Origin: Desulfococcus multivorans
GTDB taxonomy: Bacteria > Desulfobacterota > Desulfobacteria > Desulfobacterales > Desulfococcaceae
DNA length: 64,000 bases
NCBI RefSeq assembly: GCF_001854245.1
Contig: NZ_CP015381.1
Location: 2,701,001 to 2,765,000 of the forward strand
Reading direction: 5' to 3'
The translations under genes and the position numbers were made by a program. Shown piece by piece: positions 38,783 to 51,147 of this stretch. The notes beneath the pieces were generated by a model. That model had not been told where the DNA came from. It searched no databases and was given only the letters and a program-made list of their open reading frames with translations. Every line of letters begins with the position of its first letter. The stretch's first letter is position 1.

Positions 38783-39313
38783 TCAGTCCTTCTGCGCCAA
38801 CCGCGCCACAGTGTTGACGATCTTCTCCAATCCGAACTTGTCTATCAGGGATTCCACGCCGGCCTGTACGTCCGCCATCTCCACCTGTTCTTCCACTTCC
38901 TCTTCCCGTTCTTCATAAATGAGCACGTCATTAAGGCACCAGTCAACACAGAGGGGCCTCTCTTCCCCTTCGCACATGTCGCATCTGAGTGGGAGACCGG
39001 AATCGGGATCCTTGAACAGGTCCCTGGACGGACAGGCGGCTCTACAGAAGCTGCACTCGTCGTATTCTTTCCCGTCAATGATATATGTGTCTCTGCCCAT
39101 GCATTCGGCCGGCGTATACTCGCCTGCAAACACCGGAAGCCATATATTTTTCAACCGGTGAGTCGTTATATGAATGCGGGATTTCGCCGGATTGACGCTG
39201 CTGTATTTCGGTTCGGCGTGATAGGCGGAGCAGATGATCTCGCATCCGCGGCAGCCGTTACACTTGTCGGCCTCAATCCTGATTGTCTTGATTTTCTTTT
39301 TGATCTTTGCCAT
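38783..39313 (-). CDS. BamC-like ferredoxin subunit, second copy
   Basis: About 176 residues from ATG 39313, which lies 41 bases inside the 3' end of the AOR gene. Cys motifs: KCNGCRGCEIICSAYH, ECSFCRAACPS and CDMCEGEERPLCVDWC, enough for three 4Fe-4S clusters. It is a paralogue of the protein at 48491-49036. In class II benzoyl-CoA reductase BamC carries electrons to the tungsten centre of BamB. Pairing with the AOR paralogue at 39273 is inferred from overlap and order. Confidence 0.87.
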   Translation of the reverse strand: MAKIKKKIKTIRIEADKCNGCRGCEIICSAYHAEPKYSSVNPAKSRIHITTHRLKNIWLPVFAGEYTPAECMGRDTYIIDGKEYDECSFCRAACPSRDLFKDPDSGLPLRCDMCEGEERPLCVDWCLNDVLIYEEREEEVEEQVEMADVQAGVESLIDKFGLEKIVNTVARLAQKD

Positions 39314-41270
39314 CTTGATATAATCCCCTCTTTTCAAGGTCCTGGGCAACATAATCGAGATCTAGCTCGTGCAATCGTTCCTTCGTGGGAATGCCGTTAT
39401 AATTCCATCCCTTGTAGGTATAGTACGTCGTCAGAAGCTCTTCTTCCAACTCGGGATATCGTCTTCGCCAGTGGTCTTCAGGCGGCTTCTCATCAGCTCT
39501 TGACATGCCCAGCCGGTTGTTGTACGCCCGGTGCAGATTCCGGCTCCTGTTGACGATCTTCTTCAACCCTGCTTCATCGACATCCATACCGGTAGCCGTC
39601 GAGATCAATTTCGGATAATTGTGAATATGATAGGGGGGCTTCAGGCAGAAGGACGCCATACCGGCGCATATGCAAAGGGCGTCGTCGATATTGTGCAGCA
39701 TTTCCATCCAGTCCACAATCTCAGCGCACATTTGAGGGGTTGGGTAATAGGGATTCGATTTTTCGCCCCGTGGCTCCCAATCCAGAAAATATTGCTTGAA
39801 CTTTTCATCAGGAATCTGGGGCCAATCCTCGACAAAGGCCTCCCGATCCTCCCTATTGGGAAACGCCGCCTGGGGCCAGTTTCCTTCAATCTGAGTGATG
39901 CTGATTTTCTCGTTTGTGGAATACATCAGGAAATAGAGCGGATCCAGCATGCCCAGCTTGATGTTCATCTGTTCATGTTTTTTGATGGTGTTGTGATCAT
40001 ACTTTTCCGCACCTTTGCCGATCTTTCGGGCGGCCCAATAAGTTCCCTCGGCCAGCACATCGCCTATGCCTTCCCGTCGCACCATCCTGTCAAGCAGCCA
40101 GAAGAATCTCCCCGCATTATCGGACGGGCATCCTTCAAAATCCTTATCCGTCAGAATGCCGGCTTCATAGAGTTCAACCGCAAAAGCCAGAATCTGCGGG
40201 GTGGAGAAAGAATCCACACCATATTCAAAAGCCCGCTGTGCGATTTCAAAACCAAACTCCAGATCGTCGACATACGCCGCCATGCCATAGGTCAGTTTCG
40301 AGAAACATTTCATCATGTAGCCCGGCGTATCTTTATGGCCTATCAAAGCCCCGCATTGCTGCGGACAGTTATAGCAGCTGATATACCGCTTTATCGCTTC
40401 CTTTTGGGTCTTTTTCCAGCTTTCCTCGATATCCTTGGTCCAGAAGTCTTTTCGCCTGCGGCGGGCATTCCCCCAGACGAAACTTTCCGTGTGCCACTTC
40501 TCATCATAATGCTTCATCTCCTGAGGAGACCCGATCCCGGACAGGATGGTCATGACACCCGGAAGAGGGTTAGTGTTACGGTAGTTGATATAGGCCTCCA
40601 CCTCCTTCAAATGCGCCATGAATTCAGGCCCTCGAGCGAGGTTGACGCCGCCGGTGCCGCGAACCGCCACCGCTTTGATCTTCTTGTCGCCCATGATGGC
40701 GCCGCCGCCGCCTCTGCTGGCACTCGAGCGGGACTGTTCGATGGAGGCCACAAAAACGCGATTTTCACCCGCCAGGCCGATAGCGGCCACCTCGGCTCTC
40801 GGATCCTTCAGCTCCTCCCGGATCAGATCCTGTGTCTCTACTGCGCCTTTGCCCACCAAGTGAGTGGCGTCACGAATTTCCACTTTGTTATTGTGAATCC
40901 AGATATAAACCCATTCGGGAGATTTGTTGCGGAAAATGATTTTATCATAACCGGCATACTTCAATTCAGAGGAAAAAAAACCGCCCATCATCGGGTACGC
41001 CAACAACCCCGTCTGGGGGGAAATAAAGGAAACGATAGTCCGGTTGGCGCTGTAGGCGGGGGTCCCGTTGAAAAGACCGGTGCTGAATATCAGTAAGTTG
41101 CCGGGATCAAAAGGTTTCGTTTCAGGTGGAACCCTATCCCAGTGAAGTTTGACGGCAGTGCCGAGACCGCCCAAATGGAGCTCCATCATTTTCGGGTCGG
41201 TTTCCACCCGTTCAATGTTGCCCGTCGCTAAATCAATTTCCAGGTTATACCCTGTCTCTGCATACCTCAT
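39273..41270 (-). CDS. BamB-like tungsten AOR-family subunit, second copy (ring reductase paralogue)
   Basis: 665 residues, co-linear with the BamB protein at 49055 without gaps to residue 330. BamB in Geobacter reduces benzoyl-CoA to cyclohexadienoyl-CoA at a W-pterin centre. Conserved with BamB-1: Glu251, His260 and Cys322 (active site and metal ligand in the known structure, by my recall of its numbering), Cys299/302/306 for the 4Fe-4S cluster. Differences: His255 to Tyr, Asn263 to Ser, and the pocket stretch 68-77. A different aryl-CoA substrate is therefore likely. Encoded after etfA and before its own BamC-like ferredoxin. Confidence 0.85.
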   Translation of the reverse strand: MRYAETGYNLEIDLATGNIERVETDPKMMELHLGGLGTAVKLHWDRVPPETKPFDPGNLLIFSTGLFNGTPAYSANRTIVSFISPQTGLLAYPMMGGFFSSELKYAGYDKIIFRNKSPEWVYIWIHNNKVEIRDATHLVGKGAVETQDLIREELKDPRAEVAAIGLAGENRVFVASIEQSRSSASRGGGGAIMGDKKIKAVAVRGTGGVNLARGPEFMAHLKEVEAYINYRNTNPLPGVMTILSGIGSPQEMKHYDEKWHTESFVWGNARRRRKDFWTKDIEESWKKTQKEAIKRYISCYNCPQQCGALIGHKDTPGYMMKCFSKLTYGMAAYVDDLEFGFEIAQRAFEYGVDSFSTPQILAFAVELYEAGILTDKDFEGCPSDNAGRFFWLLDRMVRREGIGDVLAEGTYWAARKIGKGAEKYDHNTIKKHEQMNIKLGMLDPLYFLMYSTNEKISITQIEGNWPQAAFPNREDREAFVEDWPQIPDEKFKQYFLDWEPRGEKSNPYYPTPQMCAEIVDWMEMLHNIDDALCICAGMASFCLKPPYHIHNYPKLISTATGMDVDEAGLKKIVNRSRNLHRAYNNRLGMSRADEKPPEDHWRRRYPELEEELLTTYYTYKGWNYNGIPTKERLHELDLDYVAQDLEKRGLYQDGKDQKENQDNQD

Positions 41271-41407: not shown

Positions 41408-42367
41408 CTAGCTTCTGACCTTTTGAATTTCTTCACGAAGAATCGGCACCACTTCGAACAGGTCGCCGACGATGCCGTAATCCGCTACGTTGAATATGGG
41501 GGCTTCCGGATCTTTATTGACGGCCAGAATCACCTTTGAACCGGTCATCCCGGCAAGATGCTGAATGGCGCCGGAAATACCCACGGCGATGTAAAGCGAC
41601 GGTGCGACGATTTTGCCGGTCTGTCCGACCTGTTTGTTGTGTGCCAGGAATCCGCCGTCAACCATCGCACGTGAAGCGCCGAACCCGGCATTCAGATCGT
41701 TGGCCAGCTCCTTCACGAGATCGACGCCGGCCTGGTTTTTGGCACCGCGGCCCACCGAAACGACAACGTCGGCATCCGTCAGATCGATATCGCCGCTGGC
41801 ATCGGATACCAGCTCTTTAATGACGGCCCTTAAATCCGGGGCGGGCGGGGTGAGTTTGACGACGTTTTCAGTCCCGCCGATGCCTTCCGTCGCTTCGAAA
41901 GCGCCGGCCCTGACCACGGCCGCCAGCCGGGGGGTATTGACCTTTACGCGCTGCATCACTTTATTGGTAATGGCCGGTCTGACGATCTCGATGCAACCCC
42001 CCTCGAGCGTCACGTCGGTGATTTCACTGGCACATGCCGCGTCCAGTTGTGCGGCAACCCTTGGCGCTACGGCCTTGCCGCCTTCTGAAAATCCGAACCA
42101 TACCAGGTCCGCACCCGATTGCTTCGCCGCATCGACGACACAGGATGCAAAAGGTCCGGCCGAAAACAACGCCAGTCCCGGGTCGTCGGCGATATACTGT
42201 GTATCGGAGCCCGCCTCGACCAAAGTGGGAACCAACGATTCGATATTGCTGCCGATGGCAACCACCGCAGCCTCGGCGCCCATAGCCCTGGCCTTGGATA
42301 ACAATTCGACGGTGCTGCCCTTGAGAACGCCTTCTTTGATGTCTGCAACTACGAGGACTTTAGCCAT
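41408..42367 (-). CDS. etfA: Electron transfer flavoprotein alpha subunit (set 2, Bam cluster)
   Basis: 319 residues. FAD-binding motif VVSVGRGAKNQAGVDLVKELANDLNAGFGASRAMVD, then GQTGKIVAPSLYIAVGISGAIQH and ILAVNKDPEAPIFNVADYGIVGDLFEVVP. Start ATG 42367 has AAGGGA upstream. This ETF lies inside the Bam cluster and is about 50% different in surface sequence from set 1, so it may serve the ring-reductase complex or the dehydrogenase that follows it. Downstream gene BamB-2 begins 137 bases on. Confidence 0.93.
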   Translation of the reverse strand: MAKVLVVADIKEGVLKGSTVELLSKARAMGAEAAVVAIGSNIESLVPTLVEAGSDTQYIADDPGLALFSAGPFASCVVDAAKQSGADLVWFGFSEGGKAVAPRVAAQLDAACASEITDVTLEGGCIEIVRPAITNKVMQRVKVNTPRLAAVVRAGAFEATEGIGGTENVVKLTPPAPDLRAVIKELVSDASGDIDLTDADVVVSVGRGAKNQAGVDLVKELANDLNAGFGASRAMVDGGFLAHNKQVGQTGKIVAPSLYIAVGISGAIQHLAGMTGSKVILAVNKDPEAPIFNVADYGIVGDLFEVVPILREEIQKVRS

Positions 42368-42433: not shown

Positions 42434-43216
42434 TCAGAGCACCTTGGCTTCATCGGCCAGAAGCTGAACAACCTTTGCGGTGATCTCGGCGGCGTCCCCT
42501 TCAAATTTCTGTCCGGCCTTGCGGGTTTTGGACGCCATGAATTCAATCACCTCCGATTTTGGCGCAGCAGCGCCGATCTCATCCGGAGAAGTCCCCAGCG
42601 CCGCCAGATCCATTTTGTTGATGGGCTTCTTCTTGGCCATCATGATGCCCCGCATCTGCGGCAGTCTGGGTTCATTGATGCTGACGTCGACGGTGATCAC
42701 GGCGGGCAGCGTCAGTTCGACGATTTCGGTTCCGGCATCCCCGGCCCGGGAGACCTTGAGATGCTGGTCATCCACGACCTCGACGCCGATCACGTTGCTG
42801 ACACACGGCAGCCCCAGATATTCCGCCAGAATGATACCGGTCTGACCGGCGTCGGTATCCTGAGCCTGCTTTCCGGTGATTACCAGGTCATAGTTTCCTT
42901 TTTCATAAACTTTCTGAAGCACCCTGGCATAGATTGCGGCATCGGCCTTTTCCAATGCCGGATCATCGATATGGATGCCGTTTTCAATGCCCATGGCATA
43001 GCATTTGCGGATCATATCGGTATTGTCTCCGCCGCCCACGCTCACCAGGGTCGTTTCCGCGCCGTTTTTTTCCTTCAACCGGACGGCGGTTTCCACCGCA
43101 TTTTCATCCCAGGCGTTGATGACATATTGCAGCCCGTCCTCAACAATGGCGCCGTCCTTGACGTGGATGGTCAATTCCACGTCCACCACCTTTTTCACTG
43201 TCGTCAAAATTTTCAA
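42434..43216 (-). CDS. etfB: Electron transfer flavoprotein beta subunit (set 2, Bam cluster)
   Basis: About 260 residues from a TTG at 43216, chosen because AGGAGG lies 5 bases upstream and the protein then begins (M)KILTTVKKVVDVE, the family N-terminus; a longer frame would overlap BamF. Motifs: MGIENGIHIDDPALEKADAAIYARVL, ITGKQAQDTDAGQTGIILAEYLG and TVDVSINEPRLPQMRGIMMAKKKPI. It starts 37 bases after the bamF stop. Confidence 0.93.
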   Translation of the reverse strand: MKILTTVKKVVDVELTIHVKDGAIVEDGLQYVINAWDENAVETAVRLKEKNGAETTLVSVGGGDNTDMIRKCYAMGIENGIHIDDPALEKADAAIYARVLQKVYEKGNYDLVITGKQAQDTDAGQTGIILAEYLGLPCVSNVIGVEVVDDQHLKVSRAGDAGTEIVELTLPAVITVDVSINEPRLPQMRGIMMAKKKPINKMDLAALGTSPDEIGAAAPKSEVIEFMASKTRKAGQKFEGDAAEITAKVVQLLADEAKVL

Positions 43217-43253
43217 TGGATCCTCCTGTTTGTTTGGGTTCCGTTCGCCCCTT

Positions 43254-44099
43254 TCATGCGGTTGACGCCTCTTTGCCTTTTCTGACGATGATGCGTTCTT
43301 CCTCAGGAATCGGCGGCGGGACAGGCTCACCGGAGATCTTCCTCACCGCGCTGAATTTGGGAGGACAAACCGCCAGGCAGGTGCCGCATTTGATGCACTT
43401 ATCCTGATCGATGACATGAATCCTGTTCTTGCCGCCGTCAATGGCATCCACAGGGCATCTCTTGAAGCACATCCCGCAAGCCTTGCACGCAGCCGGATCG
43501 ATGTAATAGGAGACGACTTCATTAATCAACTGTTCTACCTCATCGATCGTGAAGAATGTCTCATAGTCCTCTTTTTTTGAAAGATGTGTCCCCAACTTCT
43601 CGTTTTTTTCCAGCTTGATGTAGGGAACCAATTTTCTGATTTCCGCAAGCCTGGACGCCAACAATTCCTTGTCGATTCCCTCAGCCTTGCCGAGCGGCCC
43701 TATCGTCTTGACCTTCGTCGTAAAGTCATCGATGATTTCGCTCAACAGGATGCCGTCGCCGGAAGACATGAATTCGATTCGCAGCCGTTCCGGATTCAGT
43801 CCGATGTATTCCATGATTTTCCGGCACAAAAGCACCATGTTCAATGCATGATAATTGCCGTGGGTGATATAGTTACACTCATTCAAACGGCAGCCGCCGA
43901 TAAACACGCCGTCGACGCCGTTCGAGAATGCTCTGAGGACAAAGTCCAGGTCGACTCTCCCGGAGCACATAACCCGAATCAGTCTGATTTCACTTGGATA
44001 CCGTAGTCTGGAAACTCCAGCCATGTCAGCGGCACCGTACGCTCACCAGTGACATACAAAACCGAGGATGCTGGGTTTGAATTGAAGTTCTTTACTCAT
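43254..44099 (-). CDS. bamF: BamF: MvhD-like selenoprotein fused to a ferredoxin domain
   Basis: 281 residues if the in-frame TGA at 44045-44043 is read as selenocysteine 19. The N-terminus is MSKELQFKPSILGFVCHW-U-AYGAADMAGVSR, matching MvhD (F-V-C-x2-C-x-Y-A-G-A-D) with Sec for Cys. The MvhD 2Fe-2S domain (to ~140) is followed by two 4Fe-4S motifs, CKACGMCFKRCP and CIKCGTCLAVCP. MvhD passes electrons between a hydrogenase or other donor and HdrA. Taking the first ATG after the TGA (44024) would lose Cys16 and is wrong. A hairpin (44008-44020) follows the TGA as a likely SECIS. G. metallireducens BamF is also reported as a selenoprotein. Confidence 0.85.
44008..44020 (-). promoter_or_regulatory. 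SECIS-like hairpin after the bamF TGA
   Basis: Perfect 5-bp stem CTGGA/TCCAG with a GTT loop, starting 22 bases after the in-frame TGA, within the range used by bacterial SECIS elements. The loop is shorter than the E. coli type. Role inferred from place and from Cys/Sec alignment. Confidence 0.5.
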
Positions 44100-44184
44100 T
44101 CGTCCTCTCCTCCTTTGGGTAAATGCCGCTTCTCTTGATTTTCACGTCGCTACGCATCTGCAGCCACCTCAATGTATGAAAAGT

Positions 44185-47100
44185 CTATTTCTCTGAAACC
44201 AGGGCATCAATCTGACACGCGATCTCCGTATCGGTAAAGTGCTGAAGTGCGATGGCGCCCGTGGGGCATTTGACGTTGCAAAGGCCGTCTCCCTTGCAGA
44301 GCACCGGATTGACGACCGCTTTCCTGTCCCGTTTGGTCTCCCGAAATTCTATGGCACCATAGGTGCAGGCGGCGATGCAGGCCCCGCATCCCATACAGCG
44401 TTTTTCGTTCACCTTGGCTACGGCGCCGGAGGCCGTCACGGTGTTGTGCGAAAGCAGCGTCAGGACCCGGCCCGCCGCCCCATAAGCCTGGTTGATGGCT
44501 TCGGGGATATATTTGGGATAATGCGCCATACCGCAAAGATAAACACCGTCCGCAGCAAACTCGACGGGCTTCAATTTAGCATGCGCCTCCTTGAAAAAAC
44601 CGTCCGGGCTGAGCGTCACCTTGAACAATCCGGCAATCGCGTCGGTTGATGCGGCGGGAACAATCGCTGTCGCCAGCGAGATATAATCAGCGTCGATAGC
44701 CAGTTTATGCCCCAGAATGTAATCGGTTGCCGTCACCCTCAATACAGGGCGACCTTCCTCGACAACCGCCTCCAATTGCGGTTTGTCATCCGGTTCATAT
44801 CGAATGAATTTGACATTCTTTGCCGATGCTTCCCGATAGAAATCCTCTCTGAGCCCATAGGTTCTCATATCCCGAAAAAGGATATGAATATCCATCTCCG
44901 GATTGATCTCTTTCAGTTTCAAGGCATGCTTGACAGACTGGCCGCAACAGATCCGGGAGCAGTAATTCCGGTCTTCATTCCGGCAACCGACACATTGAAT
45001 CATGACGAGGCTTCCGGCGTTGACCAGTTTTTCTTCCTTCTTGGCGATCCGATCCTCCAATTCCAGATGGGTCAAAACCCGCTCATCTTCCCCGTAGAGG
45101 AATTCAGTGGGTTGATAGGGATCCGCGCCAATAGCGATCACAGCCGCGCCGTGCTCTATGGTTTTAACCCGCCCTTCCGTTTCCACCGTCGTAACAAAGT
45201 TGCCGATATACCCGGAAACGTCCGTGATGACGGCGTCATGGGATACGTGGACCAAGGGGTTCTGATACACCGCCCGGATCAAATCCTTCAAATAGCCTTG
45301 AACATCCAGACCTTCCAGGGTGTAGTAAATCCTTCGCGCCATGCCTCCCAGGTTCTTTTCCTTTTCGATAAGCTGGACTTCATGCCCCTGAGCGGCAATT
45401 GAAAGCGCGCTGGTCATACCGGCGATGCCGCCGCCGACCACCAGAGCCGTTTTGTTGACGGTCAGGTCAAATTCCTGCAAGGGTTCCAGATGCCGGGCGC
45501 GGGCGACCGACATTCGGATAAGATCTCTTGCCTTCTGAGTGGCGGCTTCCTTTTCTTTGGAATGGACCCAGGAGTTATGCTCCCGGATATTGGCCATTTC
45601 ACAATAATATTGATTGATGCCCGCTTCCCTGAGCGTGTCCCGAAACAACGGCTCAAGGGTTCTGGGTGAACAGGCGGCAATCACCACCCGGTTGAGCCCT
45701 TTTTCTTTTGCCATGTCCGTTATTTCCCTGGCGGAATTGGTCGCACATGAAAACAGCTGTTCCTGGGCGTAAACCACGTTGGGCAACGTCAATACGTAAT
45801 CCACCGTAGAGGGAACGTTGACCACGCTGCTGATATTGGCGCCGCAATGGCAGACAAATACGCCGATTCTCGGCTCCTCTTTGGAAACATCCTTTTCCGG
45901 AGGATAGACACGCTCCCGGGTCAGTTTTCCCCGTCGATAGTTCAGAAGCTCACCGCATTGGGCACCGGCCCCGCTGGCGCTGAAAACAGATTCCGGGATA
46001 TCGGTCGGTCCCTGAAAAGCGCCGCTGACAAATATTCCCGGTCGGGAGGTCGCCATGGGGTTGGAAGAGATCGCTTTGCAAAATCCGTGGGAATTGAGTT
46101 CGATATCGAACGTACCCGACAGCCCGGCAATACCGGAAGGCGGGTTCAGCCCAACGGACAACACCACCATATCGAATTCTTCCTCTTTGACGCCTTCATC
46201 CGGCGTCGCGTATCGAACGACAACATTTTTGGTTTCCGGAATTTCCCTGACGATCGATGCGTAGCTCCTGACAAACCGGGTCCCGGGAAGCTGTTCCGTT
46301 CTTTGGAAGTACCGTTCAAAGTCCTTGCCGTGAGAGCGAATATCGTTGTGAAATATGGTGCATTCCGCCGCCGCATCATGATCTTTGGTCAGAATCACCT
46401 GCTTTTGCGTATAAGTGCAGCACACGCCGGAACAGTAGCTGTTTTCGCCCGGCGTTACCCGTCTTGATCCAACACATTGGATCCAGGCGATCTTGTGGGG
46501 ATGCTTCCCGTCCGAAGTCCTCAAAATTTCTCCCCCGTAGGGGCCGGTAGCGCACATCAGCCGCTCGTAGTCCATACTGGTGACCACGTTTGCCATCTTC
46601 CCATAGCCGTATTCAGCCTTTACCCTGGGATCGAACGGCTCGAGTCCAAGCGCGAGAATGACGGCGCCGACATTGACCTCCACCTTTTCAGGCTTCTGCT
46701 TGAAATCAATGGCATCCGCCTGGCAGACATTCTGACAGATCAGACATTTTTTCTCCTTGAGGTAGAGGCAGCTGTCATCGATGTAAGCGACAAGCGGAAC
46801 CGCCTGCGAATAATAGATATGAACGGCTTTGTTTTGTGATATATTCTGATTGAACGGATCCGGGTATTGCACCGGACAATAGGTTACACAAGTGGTACAC
46901 CCCGTGCATTTGTCCTCGATAATGTATCTCGGCTTTTTCGTCAGCGTTACTTTGAAATCTCCTGCCTCTCCCTCCACACTGTTGACTTCAGTATAGGTGA
47001 GAACCTCTACATTCGGATGCCGGTCGACCTCGACCAGTTTAGGCGAGAGAATTCACATGGAGCAGTCGTTTGTGGGAAAAGTCTTATCCAGCTGAGCCAT

Positions 47101-47271
47101 ATGGCCGCCGATACTCGGCGATTTTTCAACCAGATAAACCTTGAAGCCCGCAGCAGCCAAATCAAGGGAAGCCTGGACACCGCTGATGCCGCCGCCAACA
47201 ACCATCACGTCTCCAAAATTCATATTTCCACCGCTGTTGAAAAACGCTCCTTCAACTCGTTGGTTTTCCAT
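44185..47271 (-). CDS. bamE: BamE: HdrA-like flavoprotein, selenoprotein
   Basis: 1028 residues when the TGA at 47055-47053 is read as Sec73. The N-terminus [31 protein letters not shown] carries FAD-binding [29 protein letters not shown] matches the HdrA NDCSMC motif with Sec. Domains: FAD, 4Fe-4[24 protein letters not shown], second FAD GGGIAG (about 540), and C-terminal [12 protein letters not shown] and [12 protein letters not shown]. HdrA-type proteins bifurcate electrons at FAD. AAAGGA precedes ATG 47271. A break into two genes at 46977 would be wrong; the frame reads through. A hairpin at 47020-47037 follows. Confidence 0.87.
47020..47037 (-). promoter_or_regulatory. SECIS-like hairpin after the bamE TGA
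   Basis: Seven-pair stem CTGGTCG/CGACCGG (one G-U pair) with loop AGGT, 15 bases after the TGA at 47055-47053. The AGGT loop resembles the AGGUCU apical loop of the E. coli fdhF SECIS. This supports Sec insertion rather than a nonsense mutation. Confidence 0.6.
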
Positions 47272-47303
47272 TTCTCTCGGTCCTTTTTAAATTTTTTGAG
47301 TTC

Positions 47304-48455
47304 TTAAAGTGCTTCCTGGATGATTTCGGTGATGTCCTTGACCTCCAGGACGTCGTCATATTCCAGGTTCAACCGGCTCTCCTCGAAGTTGGTGATGCAG
47401 TATGGGCATGACGTCGCCAACACATCCGCGTCAACCTCCCTCGCCTGTCTCAATCGGATATCGGAAAATCTTTCGTTCTGGGGCGTGTCCATCCAGATTC
47501 TTCCACCGCCCCCGCCGCAGCAAAGGCTGTCTTCACGCGAGTCCGCCATCTCGATCAATTCCAGGCCCGGTATCTGTTTCAATAATTCCCGGGGTTCCTC
47601 ATAAATATTGTTATGCCGCCCCATATAGCAGGGATCATGATAGGTCACTTTCCGCTCGTATGCCTTGTTGAACGTCAGCCGTCCTTCCCTCATCAGCTCG
47701 AATAAAAATTGAGAGATATGAACCACTTCAAAATTGACCATGAATTCGGGATATTCATTTTTAAAGGTGTGGTAGCAGTGGGGCGAAGAAACGAGAACCT
47801 TCCTGACGCCATTGTCGATAAACGTCTTGATGTTTTCCTTGGCAAGACGTCTGAACAGTTCCTCGCTTCCCGTCTTTCGGATACTCTCGCCGCAACAGTT
47901 CTCCTCTGCGCCCAGTATACCGAAATCGATCCCCGCTCTATTGAGGATGTCGGCGGTGGCCACGGCCACTTTTTTCATCCTGGGATCATAGCTGAGGTAA
48001 CAACCGACAAAGTATAAAATCTCCATCCCCTCGGCGTAGGGCTTTACATCCAGATCTTTAGCCCAGTCGGCTCGCTTTTTCCGATCTCCCTGCAAGGGGT
48101 TGCCTTCGGAAATAATACTGGCCCTCGCCGTCCTTGCAGAACGGACGGACGGCGGGAACACCTCATAATTCGTCGCGACCCTGCGGAGGGAAATCCCCAC
48201 CTCGATCTGTTTGACGCCCCGGGGACAACGCTGAGGGCATCTTCCACAAGTCGTGCACCGCCAAATATCTTCGCCTTCGATTTCATTCAGACCGAACGTG
48301 GCCTGCCGGATGATCTTGCGAATGCTGAAATCCCTGACCCTGTTCCATGGGCAGACCGTATCGCACAGCCCGCACTGAAAACAGTATCTGAAGGCATCTC
48401 CACCAGCCTCTTTGATCTCTTCGATCACTTCCTTGAAGGGGGCGACTGTTTCCAC
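47304..48455 (-). CDS. bamD: BamD: HdrD-like Fe-S subunit
   Basis: 383 residues; start is GTG 48455 with AAGGA close before. Two 4Fe-4S motifs come first (CFQCGLCDTVCPW, CTTCGRCPQRCPRG). Two CCG domains follow: EENCCGESIRK and CCGGGGGRIW, with HDPCYMGR and SCPYCITNFEE. No membrane helix, so it is a soluble HdrD-type partner of BamE. In the Bam complex it links BamC and BamE. The gene starts 35 bases after the bamC stop and ends 32 bases before bamE. Confidence 0.9.
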   Translation of the reverse strand: METVAPFKEVIEEIKEAGGDAFRYCFQCGLCDTVCPWNRVRDFSIRKIIRQATFGLNEIEGEDIWRCTTCGRCPQRCPRGVKQIEVGISLRRVATNYEVFPPSVRSARTARASIISEGNPLQGDRKKRADWAKDLDVKPYAEGMEILYFVGCYLSYDPRMKKVAVATADILNRAGIDFGILGAEENCCGESIRKTGSEELFRRLAKENIKTFIDNGVRKVLVSSPHCYHTFKNEYPEFMVNFEVVHISQFLFELMREGRLTFNKAYERKVTYHDPCYMGRHNNIYEEPRELLKQIPGLELIEMADSREDSLCCGGGGGRIWMDTPQNERFSDIRLRQAREVDADVLATSCPYCITNFEESRLNLEYDDVLEVKDITEIIQEAL

Positions 48456-48490: not shown

Positions 48491-49036
48491 TCAGTCTTTT
48501 TTTGACATTCGGGCAACGATGTCTTTAATTTTCCCCAGTCCGTATCTGTCGGCAAGGGCCTCCAAGCCAATCTCCAACTCCTCCATTTCCTCCGGTACCG
48601 CCGTGTCCTCGACTGCCTCCTCTCGCTCTTCCAAAACCAGCGCACCCACCAGGCACCATTTGACACACAGGGGTTCCGGTTCGCCTTCACACATGTCGCA
48701 TTTCAACGGAAGACCGGAATCGGGTTCCTTGAATTCCTCCCTGGACGGACAGGAAACCCTACAGAAGGCACACTCATCGTACTCTTTGCCGTCGATGATG
48801 TATTTGTCCCTTCCGGCGCATTCGGCAACCGCATAGTCGCCCGCGTATACCGGAATAAATATATCGGCCAGGGGATCACGGACCACCCGGATACGGGATC
48901 TGGCCGGATTGTTGCTGCTGTATCTCGGTACTGCATGATAAGCAGAGCAGATCAGCTCACAAGCCCGACAGCCATTGCATTTATCCGCATTGATACGGAT
49001 CCGTCTGACAATTTTCTTTTTTTTCTCTTTTTGCAT
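48491..49036 (-). CDS. bamC: BamC, ferredoxin subunit of class II benzoyl-CoA reductase
   Basis: 181 residues with KCNGCRACELICSAYH, ECAFCRVSCPS and CDMCEGEPEPLCVKWC, three cluster-binding sets. GGAGGG lies 8 bases before the ATG. BamC binds BamB and supplies low-potential electrons. It follows bamB by 18 bases. A paralogue lies at 38783-39313 and differs mainly at the N-terminus and in the acidic C-terminal tail. Confidence 0.92.
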   Translation of the reverse strand: MQKEKKKKIVRRIRINADKCNGCRACELICSAYHAVPRYSSNNPARSRIRVVRDPLADIFIPVYAGDYAVAECAGRDKYIIDGKEYDECAFCRVSCPSREEFKEPDSGLPLKCDMCEGEPEPLCVKWCLVGALVLEEREEAVEDTAVPEEMEELEIGLEALADRYGLGKIKDIVARMSKKD

Positions 49037-49054: not shown

Positions 49055-51058
49055 TTATTTCTGTTGCTCTGCCAACACTGCTTTGGAAGACGCATCTTCA
49101 TCATCGGTCAGGATCCCCCGCTTGAAAAAATCCTCAGCGACAAAATCCAGGTTCAGCTCGCGCAAGGTGGTCGCAGTTGGAATCGCATCATTGTTCCACC
49201 CCTTGAACGCATAGTAGGCGTCCAGAAGCTTCTGCTCGAGCTCCGGAAACCGTTTCTTCCAATGGTTCTTCGGTGGTCTGTCATCTTTTCTCCGCATGCC
49301 TCTTCGGATGTTGATCGCCCGGACCAGGGTCCGGTACCGTCTGGCGGCTTGAGATAGTTTGGCTTCATCCATTTCGATCCCGGCACCCGCTGAAATAAAT
49401 TTGGGGTAATTGTGGATATGATACGGCGGTTTCAGAGGGAACGACGACAAGCCGGCACACATGCCGAGGGCGTCGTCGATGTAGTGCATCCGCTCCTGCC
49501 AATCGACAATGTCACAGCACATCTCGACGGTCGGATAATAGGGAATCGAGTTCTCGCCGCGGAGTTCCCAGTCCAGAAAGTATTGTTTGAATCTTTCATC
49601 CGGCACCTGGATCCAATCCTTTACAAACTCTTCCCGTTGCTCTCGCTTCGGAAACGGCGCCTGGGGAAACTGCCCTTCGATCTGGGTGATGTTCATCTTT
49701 TCACCCGTCGCGTACATGAGAAAATAGATGGGATTGAGCATGGACAGCTTGAGAGGCAACTGCTCGTGTTTTTTGATATTGTTGTGGGCATAGGCATCTG
49801 CGCCCCTGCCGATCCGTTGTGCCGCCCAATAGGTACCGTCGGCCAGAATGTCGCCGATACCCTCCCGGCGCACGATTCTGTCCAGCAGCCAGAAAAATCG
49901 CTCCTCATTGTCGGCCGGCATTCCCGCCATGTCGTCGTCCGTCAGGATGCCGTTTTCGTAAAGTTCCAGGCCGAAGGCCATCACCTGGGGCGTCGAGAAC
50001 CCGTCCACGCCATACTCGGTGGCGCGCTGAGCGATTCTGAGCCCAAAATCCAGATCCGAAAAGGCCGCCATGGTGTAGGTGAGTTTCGAGAAGCATTTCA
50101 TCATATAGGTGGGATGTCCCGGCATGGAGATCGTCGCACCGCACGTCATCGGACAGTTATAGCAACTGAGCAGCCGTATTCGCGCCTTGTCCATGGTTTC
50201 GGTCCACTGATTCGCGACCTCCTCGGTCCAAAAATCCTTCCTGCGAACTCGCGAATTGCCCCACATGAAATTTTCGGTGTGCCATTTCTCGTCATGTATC
50301 GCCATTTCCTGCGGCGACCCAAGACCGGCCAGAATGGGCATCACCCCCGGGATAGGATTTTCATTTCGGAACTTGATATATTCCAACACTTCATCACAGA
50401 GCCCCATGAATTCAGCCGGCCGGGCCAGGTGAACATCCCTGGTGCCGCGAACTGCGATCGCCTTGACGCCTTTGTCGCCCATAACGGCGCCGATACCGCC
50501 GCGACTGGCACTGGATCGACCCTGTTCAATGGATGCGAAAAAGACCCTGTTCTCCCCGGCAAGACCAATGGACGCCACCTGCGCCTTCGGCTGGTTCAGT
50601 TCCTTTTTAATAAGGCCCTCGGTTTCAACGGCACCCTTGCCTCGCAAATGGGAGGCATCACGAATTTCCACCTTATCATTGTGAATCCACAGATACACGA
50701 GGTCGGGAGACTTCCCCCGAAGGATCACCTTATCGTAACCGGCGTACTTCAGTTCCGGTGCAAAAAACCCCCCCATCATGGAAAATGCCATCAGTTTTGT
50801 CTGGGGAGAAATGGTGGAAACAATGGTGCGCGTAGAGCCGGTAGCGGGTGTGCCGCATAAAAGGCCGGCACTGAAAATCAGAAGGTTATCGGGTGAAAAG
50901 GGGTCTACTTCAGGGGGAACCCGATCCCACAGGATCTTGGCATTCGTACCCAAGCCTCCCAGATAGAGCTCGGTGTCTCTTTGGTCGGTTTCAACCCGTT
51001 CAATACTCCCCCGGGTCAAATCGATTTCCAAATTAAACCCTGTTTCTGCGTACCTCAT
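49055..51058 (-). CDS. bamB: BamB, catalytic tungsten subunit of class II benzoyl-CoA reductase
   Basis: 667 residues from ATG 51058 (MRYAETGFNLEIDLTRGSIERVETD; GAGAGG before it). From memory the sequence follows Geobacter BamB closely and in register: Glu251, His255, His260 and Cys322 sit at identical numbers, with SCYNCPMTCG for the 4Fe-4S site. BamB reduces benzoyl-CoA to cyclohexa-1,5-diene-1-carbonyl-CoA at a W-bis-pterin without ATP. First gene of the leftward Bam cluster under promoter-operator O2. A pseudo-extension upstream to 51136 is non-conserved. Confidence 0.93.
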   Translation of the reverse strand: MRYAETGFNLEIDLTRGSIERVETDQRDTELYLGGLGTNAKILWDRVPPEVDPFSPDNLLIFSAGLLCGTPATGSTRTIVSTISPQTKLMAFSMMGGFFAPELKYAGYDKVILRGKSPDLVYLWIHNDKVEIRDASHLRGKGAVETEGLIKKELNQPKAQVASIGLAGENRVFFASIEQGRSSASRGGIGAVMGDKGVKAIAVRGTRDVHLARPAEFMGLCDEVLEYIKFRNENPIPGVMPILAGLGSPQEMAIHDEKWHTENFMWGNSRVRRKDFWTEEVANQWTETMDKARIRLLSCYNCPMTCGATISMPGHPTYMMKCFSKLTYTMAAFSDLDFGLRIAQRATEYGVDGFSTPQVMAFGLELYENGILTDDDMAGMPADNEERFFWLLDRIVRREGIGDILADGTYWAAQRIGRGADAYAHNNIKKHEQLPLKLSMLNPIYFLMYATGEKMNITQIEGQFPQAPFPKREQREEFVKDWIQVPDERFKQYFLDWELRGENSIPYYPTVEMCCDIVDWQERMHYIDDALGMCAGLSSFPLKPPYHIHNYPKFISAGAGIEMDEAKLSQAARRYRTLVRAINIRRGMRRKDDRPPKNHWKKRFPELEQKLLDAYYAFKGWNNDAIPTATTLRELNLDFVAEDFFKRGILTDDEDASSKAVLAEQQK

Positions 51059-51147
51059 TTTTTCCTCTCTATTTTCTTCGAATCCGCGGTTCCATCGTTT
51101 TGAACTGAAATGGATAATTTTCCGCGTTAAACACAATTTGGATACTA

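Follow-up and report, generated by a model that had tools for sequence, protein, structure and literature searches.

Does the TGA that lies in frame within bamE of Desulfococcus multivorans end the protein or encode selenocysteine (Sec), and what would selenium do at that position? The question arises from a window of 64,000 nucleotides (contig NZ_CP015381.1, positions 2,701,001 to 2,765,000 of the forward strand; coordinates below are those of the window unless a genome position is stated), in which bamE (44185..47271, minus strand) encodes a fused HdrA-type protein of 1028 residues, as judged from its read-through frame, its alignment to HdrA and its Bam neighbours. Reading of this TGA as Sec was supported by the decoding machinery of the genome, by conservation of the codon, by conservation of a downstream hairpin and by the bam context; on these comparisons the codon is very probably decoded as Sec.

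The Sec codon itself is already in print for this gene and is not new. Five genes of D. multivorans with UGA and a selenocysteine insertion sequence (SECIS) were listed in 2016: hdrA (dmul_C02770/80), mvhD (dmul_C28840/50), fdhA, a peroxiredoxin gene and BamE (dmul_C24500/10), the last being the gene studied here (PMC5109826). In the parts of PMC5109826 consulted, BamE is given neither a conservation test nor a structural role, and bamF is not credited with Sec. An earlier paper of 2004 concerned, by its title, Sec proteins in benzoate metabolism of D. multivorans.

The TGA codon of bamE and its conservation

On the minus strand, TGA occupies 47055-47053, immediately 3' of the NDCSM codons (AAC GAC TGC TCC ATG TGA ATT CTC), that is, at the NDCSMC site of HdrA where a sequence-only reading of the window had placed it. 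With TGA read through, the frame opens with an ATG at 47271 and closes with a stop whose last base is 44185; U73 is the sole odd codon among its 1028 residues. That reading had also held that HdrA homology continues on both sides of the codon, and the alignment to 5odc_A, which covers query 23-378, has no gap at the site. Against methanogen equivalog models, BamE scored 907 bits for NF040770 (cut-off 1100) and 699 bits for NF041778 (cut-off 1400); it is HdrA-like, not an HdrA equivalog. The gene adjoins bamD, bamC, an AOR-type bamB and an mvhD-like bamF, the setting of BamE in class II benzoyl-CoA reductase.

If the TGA were a genuine stop, or an error of sequencing, bamE would be a split gene or a pseudogene. 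This reading fits the open reading frame (ORF) call under table 11, which leaves only a 930-residue ORF (44185-46977) starting 3' of the TGA, and fits the published locus tag, which is a pair (dmul_C24500/10; PMC5109826). Conservation, however, speaks against it. We compared 110 BamE-like loci: the copy in the window, 80 named loci (the best 80 of 295 confirmed matches) and 29 loci from relatives (the best-scoring ones). The site codon was TGA in 105 of the 110, a figure that describes close relatives and not HdrA at large; it was TGC in four (L064, L081, L100 and L108), and the remaining locus (L094) was cut before the site. In 109 of the 110, the best matched span was free of further in-frame stops (the exception, L128, has one close to the end of the span), and a separate count of in-frame stops also gave one TAA in L144. 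Wherever sufficient upstream DNA was available among the 80 named loci, BamD was matched upstream in 60 of 61 and BamB in 41 of 43; these named loci are thus taken to be bamE genes. Together with the silent-site conservation downstream of the codon (below), these counts in effect rule out an error or a pseudogene, to which we attach a negligible probability.

The codon was also found in paralogues of BamE. Among paralogues in the same genome, L020 (0.32 Mb) has TGA at the same codon and L019 (3.25 Mb) has TGC. Twenty further paralogues of 48-50% identity were picked by hand, 15 with one TGA and five without, and were tested for the place of the codon and for the hairpin only: TGA stood at the bamE-equivalent codon in all 15 TGA-bearing paralogues (selected for holding one TGA), and the five TGA-free ones had TGT (four) or TGC (one). 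The statement of the sequence-only reading that some HdrA proteins of Desulfobacterota use Sec at this cysteine is right: Sec-containing HdrA in Deltaproteobacteria was reported by Zhang et al. in 2006 (PMC1794560); HdrA/HdrL of Desulfobacterium autotrophicum (PMC2702500) belongs to the same family. As at this locus, an HdrA-type selenoprotein of that family adjoins an FrhD/MvhD selenoprotein; unlike it, BamE belongs to a benzoyl-CoA reductase operon. For Geobacter metallireducens the 2006 list gives a Sec-containing FrhD and no HdrA (PMC1794560), so that its BamE presumably has Cys. A separate match, L021 (G000:C1:3534448-3536094), is HdrA-like and holds one TGA and two TAA in the matched frame; it possibly spans two genes or is a broken copy.

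Homology on both sides of an in-frame TGA would suit read-through with any amino acid, through a code change or near-cognate suppression. A residue other than Sec or Cys is nevertheless hardly credible: i) Cys was aligned with residue 73 in every non-TGA homologue examined (the four BamE-like loci, the five TGA-free paralogues, L019 and 5odc); ii) TGA also serves as the terminator of bamF. In a rapidly built, midpoint-rooted tree of 104 rows, the four Cys-type BamE formed one clade (support 100) nested within Sec genes of Bacillota (support 95), which suggests a single change from Sec to Cys in this Bacillota-type clade; all four of their genomes still carry SelA and a tRNA-Sec match. Members of the Cys clade (L064, L081, L100 and L108) have also lost the SECIS codons and have an extra Cys at residue 82 (VEV to VEC).

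The hairpin downstream of the codon

The sequence-only reading had described a 7-pair hairpin with an AGGT loop 15 nucleotides past the TGA, and this element (CTGGTCG-AGGT-CGACCGG) was found at 47020..47037 on the minus strand. Its pattern occurs once in the window, an observation that serves only to locate it, the pattern having been built from these sequences. We propose that this hairpin, lying within the coding sequence, is a SECIS that would direct Sec insertion at the bamE UGA. It lies shortly downstream of the codon, is conserved at the RNA level and has a G early in its apical loop, as a SECIS should.

Several results weigh against such a role. After synonymous reshuffling of the next 48 nucleotides, 733 of 5000 sequences folded at least as stably and 1191 of 5000 held a 7-bp stem with a loop of 3-8 nucleotides; among 1014 windows of bamE, 298 were as stable as the hairpin and 183 held such a stem. 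The Rfam model of SECIS (RF00031) had no match in the D. multivorans genome, a result which is uninformative as it had none in any control genome either, and an Rfam scan of 43000-47400 gave nothing above the gathering score and one match far below it. In one Cys-type paralogue (L161) another 7-pair stem, different from this hairpin, forms close by (-10.6). Folding of the single sequence was rejected as proof of a SECIS, the stability of the hairpin being not above chance. Thus the significance of the hairpin comes from comparison with relatives, not from its own fold.

For that comparison 104 of the 110 rows were kept (six at least 98% identical were dropped), and the four Cys genes and the one lacking the site were set aside, leaving 99 Sec genes; silent counts were limited to rows carrying the commonest amino acid, and the ranking was corrected for the codon use of each gene. 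Codons 79-84, which write the hairpin, ranked 8, 2, 20, 7, 9 and 1 of 652 scored codons for silent conservation, with CTG in 98/98, GTC in 99/99, GAG in 97/97, GTC in 96/98, GGC in 90/90 and CGG in 98/99 rows. Of the 18-nucleotide haplotypes in the 99 genes, 86 were CTGGTCGAGGTCGGCCGG; nine had GACCGG, the type of the window, which turns a U.G pair into U-A; two had CAGGTG, which alters both sides of the closing pair (G7-C12 to C7-G12); one had ATG...CGT, again with both sides altered (C1-G18 to A-U); and one had a changed loop. All stem changes among these genes thus preserve pairing. Such pair-keeping variants represent few events, and we regard them as supportive, not as a statistical result of covariation.

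Paralogues gave the same picture. CTGGTCGAGGTCGGCCGG, one base from the form in the window, stood downstream of the codon in all 15 TGA-bearing paralogues and in none of the five TGA-free ones, and when BamE was compared with the 15 over 105 overlapping six-codon windows, that of the hairpin was the most conserved (94%). A hairpin that is merely a by-product of the peptide KLVEVxRHP would be in keeping with its ordinary single-sequence energy, matched by the 733 reshuffled sequences above. The Cys-type paralogue L163, however, has the same peptide as many Sec proteins and writes it with CTC GTC GAA GTG GGC AGA, without such a hairpin; L019 and the four Cys-type BamE also use other codons, and in three of those four the stem that forms is weaker (-6.0 to -8.1 kcal/mol) and closes another loop. 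With the silent invariance across the 99 Sec genes and their pair-keeping variants, these codons make a by-product very improbable, and the nucleotide sequence of the hairpin itself is, by these comparisons, under constraint.

Decoding machinery and a second UCA tRNA

A search of the genome for selA, selB and selC had been proposed with the sequence-only reading, and all three parts are present, so that lack of machinery is no objection to Sec. The tRNA-Sec (77.2 bits; cut-off 47) was called as tRNA-SeC with anticodon tca, SelB scored 361 bits and SelA 619.1 bits in profile searches, and SelA lies ~7 kb from SelB; selD is listed for D. multivorans (PMC5109826). This SelA/SelB/tRNA-Sec system would read the bamE UGA as Sec. 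Two counts stand on the other side. Matches above cut-off also occurred in control genomes (tRNA-Sec in 5, SelB in 2 and SelA in 1 of 14), and SelA, with the fewest, is thus the cleanest marker. By this marker, 13 of 16 genomes with a Sec-type BamE were positive and three had no SelA match; two of the three, with assemblies of 2.0 and 1.2 Mb, also lacked tRNA-Sec, the other has it, and missing contigs likely explain all three. Paradesulfitobacterium ferrireducens PLL0 (G124) is such a genome, its assembly holding a TGA-type BamE (L089) and a tRNA-Sec match with no SelA match.

Next to a second SelB-like gene, the D. multivorans genome carries another tRNA with a UCA anticodon (L002, L010 and L181; G000:C1:1714442-1716502). 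At genome positions 1,716,415-1,716,502 a second tRNA-Sec match scored 45.6 bits, below the Rfam cut-off of 47, and was called by ARAGORN as tRNA-SeC with anticodon tca. Its acceptor stem is 8 bp long (AGGGGCAA/TTGCCCCT, with A1:U72), its CCA is encoded, and T stands at the discriminator position, where the main tRNA-Sec has G. Directly after it comes a second SelB-like frame (240.2 bits, or 274.2 bits with its neighbour; TIGR00475 cut-off 242.25). In Desulfobacterales, a selC* tRNA-Cys with A1:U72, U73 and a UCA anticodon has been described, followed by selB* and then by cysS*, a second cysteinyl-tRNA synthetase (CysRS) gene (PMC7609411), and a 2018 paper concerns, by its title, the use of such a tRNA, together with SelB, to recode the Sec UGA as Cys. 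The pair in D. multivorans resembles that system in its UCA anticodon, A1:U72, U73 and adjacent SelB match; the adjoining cysS* was not seen here. Searches gave no CysRS match near 1.71 Mb and two above cut-off elsewhere (2.51 and 1.62 Mb), and inspection by eye of the ORFs listed around the second SelB gave no obvious CysRS.

These genes bring in another way of reading the codon: the bamE UGA might be read as Cys, always or under selenium shortage, by a selC*-type tRNA-Cys(UCA) through the second SelB. The tRNA-Cys features of the second UCA tRNA and its place beside a second SelB count for it and against Sec, as do the matching selC*/selB* arrangement reported in Desulfobacterales (PMC7609411), the title of the 2018 paper and the Cys that homologues have at the aligned residue. 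On the other hand, i) a normal set of SelA, SelB and tRNA-Sec is present too; ii) no CysRS match was found near 1.71 Mb, where cysS* would be expected after selB*; iii) the second tRNA falls short of the Rfam cut-off; iv) nothing links the second SelB to the bamE hairpin. We therefore consider Cys at this codon unlikely, though worth keeping in view, and since the second UCA tRNA and second SelB could insert it, our confidence in Sec was lowered slightly, from near certainty to a high degree of confidence.

A related proposal, which we put forward tentatively and hold to be about as unlikely, is that the UGA is decoded in two ways, as Sec when selenium is available and as Cys, through the selC*-type tRNA and the second SelB, when it is not, with residue 73 completing an iron-sulfur (Fe-S) cluster between the two halves of BamE either way. 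If true, one bamE gene would yield a selenolate- or a thiolate-ligated benzoyl-CoA reductase according to selenium supply. No proposal of dual Sec/Cys decoding of bamE was found in the open-licence literature, as far as its partial texts go.

Predicted role of Sec73 and the neighbouring genes

If residue 73 is Sec, as we hold, its likely role can be read from solved HdrA structures, to which BamE aligns in three blocks: residues 22-388 correspond to the flavin adenine dinucleotide (FAD) half, 459-619 to the N-terminal domain, and those from 848-886 onwards (depending on the chain) to the last part of HdrA, which includes the ferredoxin region. Residue 73 aligns without a gap to residue 197 of 5odc_A, a Cys. 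In HdrA, Cys197 is the single ligand of the N-terminal Fe-S cluster that is supplied by the other HdrA of the dimer, and in fused HdrA the loss of Cys197 and that of the N-terminal domain are complementary (PMC9012536). BamE shows this pattern: the first half has residue 73 and no N-terminal domain, while the N-terminal-type domain of the second half has C474, C476, C509 and C534 (conserved in 110/110 loci), and no Cys between 534 and 760 is conserved in 90% of rows. On the strength of this complementary pattern we read Sec73 as a cluster ligand between the halves. Sec73 would replace the Cys197 which one HdrA protomer lends to its partner and would, with C474, C476, C509 and C534, complete the [4Fe-4S] cluster that the N-terminal-type domain of the second half carries, a role that we favour with some reserve.

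The sequence-only reading had suggested instead that Sec73 tunes a cluster near FAD, which is probably not the right one. In the thioredoxin-reductase-type domain the FAD-side cluster is presumably held by the residues that map, by the 5odc_A alignment, to C266, C280, C284 and C285 of BamE (reportedly so in Wagner et al. 2017). That residue 73 sits in the FAD-binding half is in favour of this cluster. The residue maps, however, to Cys197, a ligand of the N-terminal-domain cluster of the partner (PMC9012536), and the N-terminal domain in the second half, with no 90%-conserved Cys at 534-760, repeats the complementary pattern of fused HdrA; tuning of the FAD-side cluster is accordingly improbable beside ligation across the halves.

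Like BamE, the fused or tandem HdrA of PMC9012536 have a Cys197 equivalent without an N-terminal domain in one half and the reverse in the other; in BamE the half with the Cys197 position comes first and the residue is Sec, whereas HdrA 3 and 4, the fusions of anaerobic methanotrophic archaea, have the opposite order. The N-terminal HdrA cluster was placed on the way out to ferredoxin in PMC9012536 and the N-terminal clusters on the way in in PMC12350162, the numbering of the two being not reconciled. No proposal of Sec as a cluster ligand across the halves in Bam was found in the partial texts of the open-licence literature. A solved complex (9sfi/9t1s), methanogen-type Hdr/hydrogenase by its chain names, has the non-standard residue X at the HdrA site (9sfi_A) and at the MvhD site (9sfi_K), where bamE and bamF have TGA; we infer that X at both is Sec. 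At one other position, a Cys in BamF, chain 9sfi_K also shows X.

A second Sec-type codon lies in bamF (43254..44099, minus strand), an MvhD-like electron-transfer subunit of 281 residues whose frame needs a second in-frame TGA to be read through. This TGA (44043..44045, minus strand) encodes residue 19 of BamF (CHWU). Downstream of BamE, 95 of the 110 loci yielded this site, among them two of the four with Cys-type BamE, and every one of the 95 has TGA there. A probable SECIS of bamF, with a stem CTGGA/TCCAG around GTT (44008..44020, minus strand), comes from reading the codons by eye, with no statistic attached; by the same inspection GCT GGA GTT TCC AGA is nearly uniform, and the fifth pair is lost in L066 and L087 (GGC GTG). 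Another mvhD-type copy at genome position 3,248,230 has one TGA and, by locus-tag order, fits the mvhD dmul_C28840/50 of PMC5109826. Hence bamF seems to be a further Sec gene, absent from the five listed there. With residue 19 of BamF, the electron path of Sec73 would have selenium at a second site. In Geobacter, BamF presumably has Sec as well.

The remaining genes of the cluster, all on the minus strand, agree with the published account, in which the single bam cluster of D. multivorans DSM 2059, at 2.74 Mbp, contains two bamB-D copies split by bamOP, and BamB1 and BamB2 were detected on aromatic substrates (PMC5109826). Upstream of bamE lie a bamD-like gene with CCG and 4Fe-4S domains (47304..48455), a bamC-like gene for a 4Fe-4S protein (48491..49036) and one of two bamB-like copies (AFOR_N/AFOR_C; 49055..51136), the other bamB-like copy being at 39273..41270. 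Among the genes between these two AOR-type genes is an electron transfer flavoprotein pair, the alpha subunit (41408..42367), called bamP-like after the description of bamOP in PMC5109826, and the beta subunit (42434..43330), which is bamO-like. Homology of the bamO-like ORF begins at about residue 39; its true start therefore lies further downstream.

The analysis thus confirms a true recoding site in the benzoyl-CoA reductase operon and restores the 1028-residue BamE from a split annotation. As the Sec codon was already in print, what is added is modest: RNA-level evidence for a real SECIS that HdrA paralogues with 48-50% identity have in common with bamE, a prediction of which cluster the selenium serves, and a second Sec-type codon, in bamF, which is absent from the list of five genes. 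With the second UCA tRNA and its SelB, whether UGA in benzoate enzymes of D. multivorans is decoded as Sec or Cys becomes a question that can be put to the test.

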